DNA of 55,463 nt, taken from NCBI GenBank assembly GCA_944391115.1, contig CALXSJ010000021.1:1-55463 (forward strand), in the 5' to 3' direction. Within the stretch, counting starts at the first letter, position 1; every line of letters begins with the position of its first letter. Origin of the DNA: an uncultured Victivallales bacterium (GTDB taxonomy: Bacteria; Verrucomicrobiota; Lentisphaeria; Victivallales; UBA1829). The notes under the pieces were generated by a model, which was not told the origin of the DNA, searched no databases, and worked only from the letters and a program-made list of their open reading frames with translations. Below, piece after piece: positions 13,722 through 52,806 of the stretch. The position numbers were made by a program, and so were the translations under genes.

Positions 13722-14249
13722 ATGGGACGCGCCTGCTTTCCGCTTCTTCTGAGTCTGACCGCCGCTGCCTTTCTCCGCGCCGATGATCTCGTCACGCGGA
13801 AAGGGAAGGTCTTTGCCGATTATAAAATCGTCGAGGTCGCGCCCATCGGCGTCCGGGTCACGTATCAGAAAGCAAAAAAGACACGCACGGCAACCATTCT
13901 CTTCAAGGAGCTCACGGACGAATTCCTGGAAAACTATCAGGGGAAAGACCCTGTTGAACGCGAAATCTTTGCCGCAAGTCTTGAGAAACGGAAAAAAATC
14001 CGTGAACTGGAAGAACAGCGCGACGCAAAGCTTGAAGCACTGGAGATGAGCGAAGCCGATTTGAAAGAGAAGAAACTCCCGGCGGAACGGCGGAAACTCC
14101 TGCGGAGCCGGATCCGGGAGGAAAAGAAAAAACTTGTCCGGGCATTTCACCGGGCGTGCGCAAAACTTGACGCAGAGGAACGCGCCCGCATCGAAACGGC
14201 AAGAAAAAAGGCCGAACAGCAGAACGACGCTCCGAAAACAGGGAAATGA
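13722..14249 (+). CDS. Secreted SH3-like/coiled-coil protein of unknown function
   Basis: A 175-residue protein with a signal peptide (MGRACFPLLLSLTAAAFLRA), a short beta-rich N-terminal part (TRKGKVFADYKIVEVAPIGV through TILFKELTDEFLENY) like small SH3-type modules seen in related phyla, and a long charged helical stretch (about residues 75-165, rich in Glu, Lys, Arg) likely to be a coiled coil. Probably periplasmic. I do not recognise a named family. Starts 16 bases after the GNAT-like gene with GAGGAGCGACGGA before it. Confidence 0.6.
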   Translation: MGRACFPLLLSLTAAAFLRADDLVTRKGKVFADYKIVEVAPIGVRVTYQKAKKTRTATILFKELTDEFLENYQGKDPVEREIFAASLEKRKKIRELEEQRDAKLEALEMSEADLKEKKLPAERRKLLRSRIREEKKKLVRAFHRACAKLDAEERARIETARKKAEQQNDAPKTGK

Positions 14250-14270
14250 ACTGCCCCGGTGCAGAGCATG

Positions 14271-14715
14271 ACACGGAGGGATCGGAGATTTCGCCTCCGG
14301 CGGCCGGCTTGCGCTGCCGGATCGCACAAGGGTCAGCGACCCTTGACCCCGAGAAGAATGCATGCGCATTCTTCCGTCTCTTGGAAGCCGGGGAGATTTC
14401 GCCTCCGGCGGCCGGCTTACGCAGCCGGATCGCACAAGAACTGAGAGGAGTGTACGAAGCAAAATTGCTTTGCAATTTTTTTAATTGCGCAGCTTCGCGC
14501 GCAGAATTTGTTTCGCCTCCGGCGACCAGCTTACGCAGCTGGACCGCGCAAGGGTCAGCGACCCTTGACCCCGAGAAGAATGCATACGCATTCTTCCGTC
14601 TCTTGGAAGCCGGGGAAAGTTCGCCTCCGGCGGCCGGCTTGCGCTGCCGGATCGCACAAGAACTGAGAGAAGAGCACGAAGCCATTCTGGCGATGCGGAG
14701 CATCGCACTATGAAA
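14271..14715. repeat. Tandem array of multi-hairpin repeats (four modules in two 222-bp units)
   Basis: This intergenic stretch is made of four copies of a core beginning TCGCCTCCGGCG at 14291, 14399, 14513 and 14621, spaced 108, 114 and 108 bases, i.e. two tandem 222-bp units. Each core has a hairpin of the form CCGGCT-TACGC-AGCCGG; the third copy has CCAGCT-TACGC-AGCTGG, a paired change that keeps the stem. Copies 1 and 3 are followed by the hairpins AAGGGTC-AGC-GACCCTT and AAGAATGC-(ATGC or ATAC)-GCATTCTT. Copies 2 and 4 are followed by an ACTGAGAG...ACGAAGC segment and other hairpins (AAATTGC-TTT-GCAATTT; GCGATGC-GGA-GCATCGC). Related single copies lie at 45,562-45,690 and 52,424-52,689. 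Confidence 0.85.
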
Positions 14716-14743
14716 CTGATTTTTTGAATAAGAAGGGACCGTC

Positions 14744-15572: not shown

Positions 15573-15639
15573 TTGACAAAGAGACTCTTTTATTTATAAT
15601 TAATGGTATTAAAGGTATTAATGGTTCTGATGGTATTAT
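15573..15639 (+). promoter_or_regulatory. Consensus sigma70 promoter with four 9-bp tandem repeats at the start site
   Basis: TTGACA (15573-15578), 16 bases, TATAAT (15595-15600) is a perfect match to both boxes. From 15604 to 15639, covering the predicted start point and running into the start codon, lie four 9-bp units: TGGTATTAA, AGGTATTAA, TGGTTCTGA, TGGTATTAT. The repeats occupy the place of a normal ribosome site and are a likely operator, probably for the regulator encoded just downstream. Confidence 0.7.
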
Positions 15640-27325: not shown

Positions 27326-27985
27326 ATGGAAAATGAAATTCAGGTTCGCTGTCCGGAATGCGGCTCGTCGCAGATTGCGCCGGTCCGGAAGAATTACGAC
27401 ATGGGATGCGGCTGCCTCGGACTGCTGCTTTTCGGCTGGATCGGACTGCTGCTCGGACTGCTCGGCGCCGGCGACGTGGAAATGGTCTGCGCCAACTGCG
27501 GCGCCCGCTGGGAACCGGGCAGGCACAATGAAAAATCCTCCGGATGCCTGGCGTCCCTGCTCCTGATTCTGGTGATTCTGTTTTTCCTCTTCTGGACGTT
27601 CCGGCTGATCGGCGCCGAACCCGCGGGAACGACCAGCTACCGGGATGCGCGGGGAGCCTTCTCCGGCTCCGCCACAGTTGACGCTTCGGGAAAAACCTAC
27701 CGCGACGCCGCGGGCAGAGTCACGGGCCGCGCTGTGACCTCGGGAAACGCCACGACCTACCGCGACGCCGCGGGCAGAGTCACGGGCCGCGCTGTGACCT
27801 CGGGGAACGCCACGACCTACCGCGACGCCGCAGGAAGAGTCACGGGCCGGGCCACGACAAACGGCAATGTCACCACCTACCGCGACGCCGCAGGAAGAGT
27901 CACGGGAACGGCGACCAGAACCGGCGACAGGATCATCTACCGCGACGCCGCGGGAAGGACCACCGGCTCGGAAACGTTCCGCTGA
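27326..27985 (+). CDS. Zinc-ribbon membrane protein with six 20-residue YRDAAGR repeats
   Basis: A 219-residue protein of unknown function. Residues about 6-70 hold two CxxC pairs (CPECGS and CANCGARW) separated by a hydrophobic GCGCLGLLLFGWIGLLLGLL segment, a zinc-ribbon-like unit. A second hydrophobic helix (LASLLLILVILFFLFWTF) follows at about 72-92. From about residue 100 to the end there are six copies of a 20-residue repeat with consensus TYRDAAGRVTGRAVTSGNAT, similar in feel to RHS/YD repeats; four are nearly identical in DNA. GGAGG stands 8 bases before the ATG at 27326. TATAGT at 27288-27293 may be its -10 box. Confidence 0.72.
   Translation: MENEIQVRCPECGSSQIAPVRKNYDMGCGCLGLLLFGWIGLLLGLLGAGDVEMVCANCGARWEPGRHNEKSSGCLASLLLILVILFFLFWTFRLIGAEPAGTTSYRDARGAFSGSATVDASGKTYRDAAGRVTGRAVTSGNATTYRDAAGRVTGRAVTSGNATTYRDAAGRVTGRATTNGNVTTYRDAAGRVTGTATRTGDRIIYRDAAGRTTGSETFR
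27700..27985 (+). repeat. In-gene 60-bp tandem repeats
   Basis: About four and a half direct repeats of 60 bp within the zinc-ribbon/repeat protein gene, each starting at ACCTACCGCGACGCCGC; two neighbouring copies differ at only one or two bases, pointing to recent duplication or gene conversion. Confidence 0.85.
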
Positions 27986-44633: not shown

Positions 44634-45560
44634 ATGAAAAACAAAAATCAAACAAGAAGCCGTTTCAAGTCACTTCAATTGCTTTTCTTCCTGCTTGCAA
44701 TGGGAACATTCCGGCTTTCCGCTTATGAGGATGCAAAAAGTGCAATCGCCGCGGCCGACGCACTAAGAAAAAATGGAAAATTGGACGAGGCGATTGCCGT
44801 ATACAATGAAGCTTGCAAACTGGCCGAACCAACGGAACGTTATTACCCCAGATTCTGGAAAGCAAGCATACTTGCACAACAGAAGAAAATACAGGAGGCG
44901 GTGGATGCACTGAATCAGATACTGGAAGATCCTGCATCCAAAGTGTCGGAAAAAGCCTCGGCGCTGTTTTACAGTGGATCTTTTCTGATGAATGCGGGGA
45001 AAAATACGGAAGCCCTTTCCTTTTTCAATAAGATCAGTGAACTTCCCGGGGAAAACTGGCAATTGTACATAGGTCTTTATAATACCGGCAATATTTTACT
45101 TTCCGGGAAAAAATACATGGAAGCGGATGCGGCTTTTCAAAAAATCCTTGACTTGCGCTTTACGCCGGTTGATTACCAGGTGCATGCACTGATCGGACAG
45201 GCCCGTATATTACAGAGCCAGAAACAGTTGGAAAAAGCATTGGAAAAAGCAGAAAAAGCCGTTTCCTTAATAAAAAATAATGACCGGATTGCAAGCCTTG
45301 CGTTAAATAAGCTGGCGGAAATTCAGAATGCCATGGGCAAGGATGAACTTTCAGAAAAGACCCTTATAAAAGTGATTGCCTTGGAAAAAGCGATCCCCGA
45401 TCAAAAAGCTTCAGCTTGTCTTGCGCTTTATGCATTTTACAAAAAATCCGGGAAAAAGGAAGACGGAAGAAAAATTCTGGAAACTGCTCGGAATATTTCC
45501 GGGATCAGCCCTCATTATAAAAAAATCATAGAGCGTGAAATAGTGAACTTTAAACAATAA
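44634..45560 (+). CDS. Secreted TPR protein
   Basis: A 308-residue protein with a signal peptide (LQLLFFLLAMGTFRLSA) and about six tetratricopeptide-like helical hairpins (KLDEAIAVYNEACKLAE, KKIQEAVDALNQILEDPASK, KYMEADAAFQKILDLRFTPV, KALEKAEKAVSLIKNNDRIA). It is probably a periplasmic or surface scaffold for the enzymes encoded around it; that is inference from position. AAGGAG lies 8 bases before the ATG. The hairpin repeat copy starts immediately after its stop. Confidence 0.75.
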   Translation: MKNKNQTRSRFKSLQLLFFLLAMGTFRLSAYEDAKSAIAAADALRKNGKLDEAIAVYNEACKLAEPTERYYPRFWKASILAQQKKIQEAVDALNQILEDPASKVSEKASALFYSGSFLMNAGKNTEALSFFNKISELPGENWQLYIGLYNTGNILLSGKKYMEADAAFQKILDLRFTPVDYQVHALIGQARILQSQKQLEKALEKAEKAVSLIKNNDRIASLALNKLAEIQNAMGKDELSEKTLIKVIALEKAIPDQKASACLALYAFYKKSGKKEDGRKILETARNISGISPHYKKIIEREIVNFKQ

Positions 45561-45561
45561 A

Positions 45562-45690
45562 TTACCGCGATGCAAGCATGCGCGGTATTGGGGATTTCGC
45601 CTCCGGCGACCAGCTTACGCAGCTGGACCGCGGCAGGACTGAGAGTCCTGCACGAAGCAATTTTTGGCGATGCAGAGCATCGCGGTATCA
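45562..45690. repeat. Single copy of the multi-hairpin repeat with terminal inverted repeats
   Basis: The core TCGCCTCCGGCGACCAGCTT (45,597-45,616) matches the third module at 14.5 kb. In order the element has TACCGCGATGC (45563-45573), hairpin CCAGCT-TACGC-AGCTGG, hairpin GCAGGACT-GAG-AGTCCTGC, the shared GCACGAAGC, and hairpin GCGATGC-AGA-GCATCGC. Its end GCATCGCGGTA (45677-45687) is the exact reverse complement of its beginning, so the ends can pair with each other or form local hairpins, but not both at once. Confidence 0.82.
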
Positions 45691-45719
45691 ACCTAAATTT
45701 TTTTGAAATCAAATTAAGA

Positions 45720-52423: not shown

Positions 52424-52689
52424 AATACTTTGCCATGCGCCTCTCCCCCCGGGAGAACAACTTTTATTAAAAGATTGCTGCCAAAGCACTTGGGTTACTA
52501 TATCCTATTGCCTGCCGATTACAAGTTCAAAAATAGACTTCGTCCGGCGTCTGATATTGGATTGCCGAATGAATCCGCCTCGAGTTGTAAAAATTCACAT
52601 AATGCTGCACCCCAAAGCGGAGCTGCGGCAAGCTCAGGACTCACTGGAAAGCACGAAGCTGTTCTGGTGATGCAAAACATCAAGGTATT
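52424..52689. repeat. Degenerate multi-hairpin repeat copy interrupted by a transposase remnant
   Basis: The right part (52,619-52,689) aligns with the repeat at 45.6 kb: GCACGAAGC (52651-52659), then GGTGATGC-AAA-ACATCAAGG, ending GGTATTA. The stem G-C pair seen at 45.67 kb is T-A here, a compensatory change. The left end AATACTTTG (52424-52432) pairs with CAAGGTATT (52681-52689) apart from one G-T pair, mirroring the terminal inverted repeat of the 45.6-kb copy. The core hairpin is missing; a transposase fragment sits in between. Confidence 0.55.
52527..52620 (-). pseudogene. C-terminal remnant of an IS3-type transposase
   Basis: The minus strand encodes HYVNFYNSRRIHSAIQYQTP followed by DEVYF and a stop (52527-52529). 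This matches the end of IS3-family integrase-core transposases, which typically read FYNxxRxHxALxYxTPxEVYF. An in-frame stop and the hairpin repeat cut it off at about 52,620. Nothing else of the element is recognisable. Confidence 0.7.
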
Positions 52690-52806
52690 ACTTCAATTTT
52701 TTATAAAAAGATTCAAAAAGGCACGATTATCTTTTTTCAAACAACGGATGCATTCCATAAAACACAGGGTGAAACCCTGCAGCAAAAGCGCAATCGATAA
52801 AATTAC

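Follow-up and report, generated by a model that had tools for sequence, protein, structure and literature searches.

What kind of sequence occupies positions 14245-14733 of the window (the whole stretch of DNA analysed, 55,463 nucleotides), where hairpin-forming words recur in tandem, and by what route did it come to lie there? The array slightly exceeds the span reported for it in the first-pass annotation (14271-14715), and repeats common to at least four other loci of the same genome delimit it at 14242-14734. Its features are as follows.

14245-14733, + strand: mosaic hairpin array consisting of a type-A 5' end, inner modules and a type-A 3' end (same ends in the ortholog of genome G001)
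14245-14250, + strand: AATGAA, the 5' junction of the array
14246-14713, + strand: open frame of 155 codons, judged spurious
14285-14347, + strand: tri-hairpin module 1, third hairpin CAAGGGTC/GACCCTTG (cmsearch 60.3 bits)
14289-14460, + strand: direct duplication, copy one (repeat search)
14393-14459, + strand: tri-hairpin module 2 (cmsearch 76.1 bits)
14507-14569, + strand: tri-hairpin module 3, the CCAGC/GCTGG version (cmsearch 57.6 bits)
14511-14682, + strand: direct duplication, copy two (repeat search)
14615-14681, + strand: tri-hairpin module 4 (cmsearch 67.8 bits)
14682-14733, + strand: type-A 3' end of the array

The four modules in a 222-bp tandem duplication that had been described from the letters were borne out by a repeat search, and the covariance model placed four modules at start spacings of 108, 114 and 108, each divisible by three; the two copies of the duplication are 91% identical at a spacing of 222 bp. 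The described change of the core stem from CCGGC..GCCGG to CCAGC..GCTGG is likewise present, and it alters the translation of the open frame from PPAAGLR.RIA to PPATSLRSWTA. The 5' junction contains, as TGA at 14247-14249, the stop codon with which the upstream gene (13722-14249) ends; the 3' end runs from a GCGATGC/GCATCGC hairpin through the foot TATGAAAC and a T run to AATAAG. The array region folds well below dinucleotide shuffles (z = -4.9). An ortholog was found between the same genes in G001, sharing the start AATGAACTGCCCCGG and the end GCGATGC..GCATCGC..TTTTTTGAATAAG, with an interior that is ~120 bp shorter than in the window and composed of units alike within G001. Since the ends are the same and the interiors differ, the window array stems from an insertion that preceded the species split and was later altered by duplication and exchange.

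The genome itself (G000, 3.66 Mb in 44 contigs) contains 95 BLAST pieces matching the window array and 53 matching a second copy in the window (45556-45709). A search of the genome and its relatives with a covariance model of the module, as the first-pass annotation had advised, showed the family to be spread across the order Victivallales, with matches in 31 of 137 genomes, all of those compared being draft assemblies; phage and plasmid collections were also searched and gave no family match. The type A unit (~150 bp, AATRAATTACCGCGATGC...GCATCGCGGTATYAACCTAAATTTTTTTGAAT) is present in G000 in ~19 copies at 95–100% identity, and near-identical sets of their own are found in G001 (mostly 96–98% to the query) and G003 (91–93%); several contigs break off within type A. 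Type B comprises long arrays, the longest 926 bp, in which hairpins have been exchanged and modules run both ways, modules being found on both strands in arrays L018, L033 and L046. The distant G036 has one copy only. Two of these (L033:2905-3382 and L046:2897-3375) have tandem units ~411 bp apart in both module orientations, a BIME-like type B arrangement. Besides the array, the window holds two further members.

45556-45709, + strand: near-pristine type-A element, 99–100% identical to many other copies
52600-52705, + strand: third copy in the window, a degenerate type-A 3' half (array extent 52635-52701 plus sequence reading)

The element at 45556-45709, which served as our reference, sits at the stop codon of a ~309-codon gene and reads AAT with a TAA stop (45558-45560), three internal hairpins (45591-45657), a closing 11-bp terminal stem with the foot GGTATC, whose C at 45689 is the base termed N1 below, then T7 and AAT. 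On folding, as DNA or as RNA, this copy is predicted to form a closed stem TACCGCGATGC/GCATCGCGGTA around the three hairpins, a closed multi-branch structure with z = -5.4 as DNA. Covariation strongly supports the predicted three-hairpin fold. Across 103 distinct modules, taken both from the genus and from further families, changes on both sides were found in 14 of 17 pairs (208 cells), with a covariation score of 0.307 against 0.118 for shuffled and ≤0.05 for slid partners and none of 500 shuffles reaching the observed value, on an alignment that was fitted to the model and so leans toward structure. This strong signal depends on the relatives and on stem-swapped copies, and the within-genome core alignment (A1) alone yields one strongly covarying pair, the same pair that the first-pass annotation had seen. 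Whole stems have been swapped between copies: CGCC-TCC-GGCG for CGTGC-TCC-GCACG or CGCGC-TTT-GCGCG, CCAGCT..AGCTGG for CCAGCG..CGCTGG, and GCAGGACT..AGTCCTGC for CAAGGGTC..GACCCTTG.

To look for empty sites, congeneric genomes were searched with the sequences flanking young copies, and the young ~150-bp copies proved to be clean insertions at AAT^NAA (^, insertion point), AAT being present at all of them and congeners keeping the empty sites. At one site that is exactly empty in G001, the occupied sequence CTCAAGAAAT-AAATTACC...GAAAT-GAACCGCG stands against CTCAAGAAATGAACCGCG; the empty sites of L080, L091 and L086 in congeners are likewise exact, and in the other direction the sites of the G001 copies L103 and L265 and of the G003 copy L285 are empty in G000. 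Host DNA shows no visible loss on insertion, and a 3-bp AAT target duplication is indistinguishable from none. The proteins upstream of insertions retain their C-termini, near-identical in congeners (FIQEELDSMDDFEFE*, SVVISLKK* and GKSHVK*), and in the first of these the TGA of the empty site is replaced by a TAA that the element supplies. Of 34 non-tandem copies, 18 have their 5' end exactly where the called upstream gene has its stop codon; of the copies outside genes (stop plus intergenic) this is 18/31, as against 35/260 for AATRA sites in the background (odds ratio 8.9, p = 1e-7), counts that are approximate because the genes were called by a simple home-made hexamer model for which the window served as training sequence. 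The enrichment may partly reflect selection against other insertions.

Inside the unit, little more than GGTAT[C/T]AACC distinguishes the two subvariants of G000, together with a single A at the right end. With N1 denoting the element base in GGTAT[N1]AACC and N2 the host base beside the insertion point, downstream, C-variants lie mostly before GAA, T-variants before AAA, and G003 copies with G before C. The two bases are complementary in 44 of 52 non-tandem insertions (T:A 21, G:C 14, C:G 9), a post hoc count over three element lineages, where permutation averaged 18.7 and never exceeded 32 in 20,000 rounds; within single genomes the association gave p = 0.002 (C- versus T-variants of G000) and p = 0.0015 (G003). 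Read from empty sites, N2 is G at L083, L080 and L086, A at L091, L103 and L265, and C at L285. Among 15 C-variants, five went into AATA sites and one stands before C; the last of these is the window's own copy at 45556, with N1 = C and N2 = C, and the window array, an old copy, is also non-complementary (N1 = G at 14712, N2 = A at 14730). The association emerged from the data before further copies were fetched, and those fetched later fit it almost without exception, most of them coming from one lineage. As the N1 variants amount to about three lineages, and as a further difference between the subvariants is the final A of their right end, linked causes are possible. We offer only tentatively, as possible rather than probable, the proposal that an element-encoded base picks the target, T-N1-A at the foot of the terminal stem pairing with T-N2-A of the host so that the variants enter AATGAA, AATAAA or AATCAA, through an enzyme outside the recognised REP transposases. 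If this were true, two of the three targets would be stop-codon contexts and insertion there harmless, stop codons would be a safe harbour within the target motif, and the target choice of a passive repeat could be read, and changed, from sequence alone.

Taken more broadly, the family probably consists of non-autonomous, single-strand-foldable mobile repeats that insert at AAT^NAA, perhaps with guide pairing by N1 and an enzyme acting in trans. The type A unit (~150 bp) folds with its 11-bp terminal stem around the three hairpins and, presumably moving as single-stranded DNA, inserts strand-specifically at AAT^NAA, with host DNA left visibly intact; T-N1-A at the stem foot would pair at that moment with T-N2-A of the target in the guide manner of IS200/IS605. 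TRA is a stop codon, and for this reason insertion often falls at the very end of a gene; the element supplies its own T(A/G)A, which leaves the protein as it was and turns the hairpins into 3' UTR. Its 3' end again reads AATNAA, so that additional copies can be added in tandem, and with age copies decay, duplicate and swap hairpins, giving mosaic arrays such as 14245-14733. A putative enzyme, perhaps lost or missing from the assemblies, would mobilise the family in trans.

IS608 chooses its target through base pairing with a guide that the element itself carries, as shown by structure and retargeting (PMC5934647), and the hairpin family resembles IS200/IS605 elements in its strand-specific insertion by a short fixed motif kept in the left flank and in its hairpins at the ends, terminal inverted repeats not being required. 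It is unlike IS608 in having no tnpA and in that its putative guide follows the terminal stem on the 3' side, the matching base being downstream of the insertion point. IS200s of the group, whether fossil or intact, have ends unrelated to those of the family. The element perhaps works like IS200/IS605, and membership of that group is not claimed.

We regard the hairpin family as a variant of REP/BIME/MITE-like palindromic mobile repeats. It shares with the REP/BIME/REPIN sequences served by RAYTs (PMC2817692, PMC3116915, PMC3733652) high-copy extragenic palindromes, mosaic arrays and compensatory stem changes, and with BIMEs in particular the arrays of alternating orientation; GTAG REPs have also been reported to supply TAG stop codons to flanking ORFs (PMC3733652). 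That the repeats are REP sequences proper, mobilised by a RAYT on contigs missing from the drafts, would agree with this palindromic, high-copy, mosaic character in both module orientations and with the contigs that break within repeats, but we consider it unlikely. The ~150-bp multi-hairpin unit far exceeds REPs (20–40 bp; PMC3733652), its junctions are AATNAA with a GTAG or CGTC tag at neither end (PMC3733652), its target base correlates with an element base, and no intact RAYT/Y1 was found with PF01797 in G000, G001 or G003 (drafts 94–95% complete). The matches to PF01797 were a broken IS200-type tnpA relic in G000 with stops and frame changes (C35:25416-25862, L030), the only Y1 trace of that genome and with no family copies in its flanks, and a fragment in G001; G003 and G019, both copy-rich, gave no match. 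Drafts easily lose repeat-flanked genes, so the absence of Y1 is not proven. The suggestion in the first-pass annotation of a REP-like transposase target thus holds as regards a REP-like mobile repeat, while the link to a TnpA-REP/Y1 gene found no support. CGTC-tagged REPs are likewise palindromic repeats without a dedicated transposase, differing in tag, size and target (PMC3733652), and how high-copy palindromes spread without a visible RAYT is a stated open question for them, on which the clean natural series described here, with its young copies, empty sites and three target-base variants, bears.

Movement as a MITE by a DDE transposase, with a 3-bp AAT target duplication, is less likely still. 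It is favoured by the length of ~150 bp, by copies that are near-identical and have AAT at either side, and by a terminal stem resembling inverted repeats, and bacterial MITEs (NEMIS, Nezha, Bcr1, ERIC) are similar in size, single closed fold and insertion next to genes. Yet the ends are asymmetric and the inverted repeats do not lie at the very ends, the complementary stretch starting ~5 bases inside the left end and ~17–20 bases inside the right end, and a DDE enzyme leaves the N1–N2 complementarity unexplained. No autonomous parent sharing the type-A ends was found in G000, G001 or G003, nor were solitary end pairs at kb distance.

Less probable again is that these are host-useful 3' UTR RNA structures, protecting or terminating mRNA ends, kept for regulation and spread by recombination. 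The hairpins are conserved and lie at gene 3' ends, the upstream gene sharing the strand of the array in 42 of the 58 cases where genes were called to either side, and + strand mismatches comprise more G.T than A.C cells (32 versus 17), but these occupy equal numbers of positions (10 versus 10), many sites are cleanly empty in sister species, and the G003 copies enter AATCAA, which is not a stop codon. A terminator role was rejected, terminator-like matches not rising above the shuffled level. The role of 3' mRNA structure or independent structured RNA, which had been floated for the array, is not supported; no Rfam 15 model matched the window region at E values up to 1 or reached its gathering score in four arrays.

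It can hardly be entertained that the repeat is translated and lengthens or adds proteins, since the 155-codon open frame and the spacings in threes, both present as had been noted (14246-14713), are outweighed by a synonymous fraction in that frame of 0.26 across module copies (0.288 expected), by hairpin offsets that vary by 1–2 bases and stops in many copies, and by a start and a stop that both lie within the repeat. The ATG, within AATGAACTG, overlaps the TGA of the upstream gene and the frame closes at a TATGA belonging to the repeat's 3' foot, which makes the frame an accident of the repeat, and a protein reading was rejected. Selection on nucleic-acid structure rather than on protein, the central claim of the first-pass annotation, is supported by this lack of a synonymous excess and with the strong order-wide covariation.

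Tandem repetition of other kinds also occurs in the window. A 60-bp tandem repeat at 27695-27957, with ~3.5 copies at 90% matches followed by more diverged ones, is unrelated to the hairpin family, and a 9-bp short tandem repeat at 15599-15638, ahead of a GntR/LacI-type regulator gene, is adjoined by a perfect sigma-70 consensus at 15573-15600.
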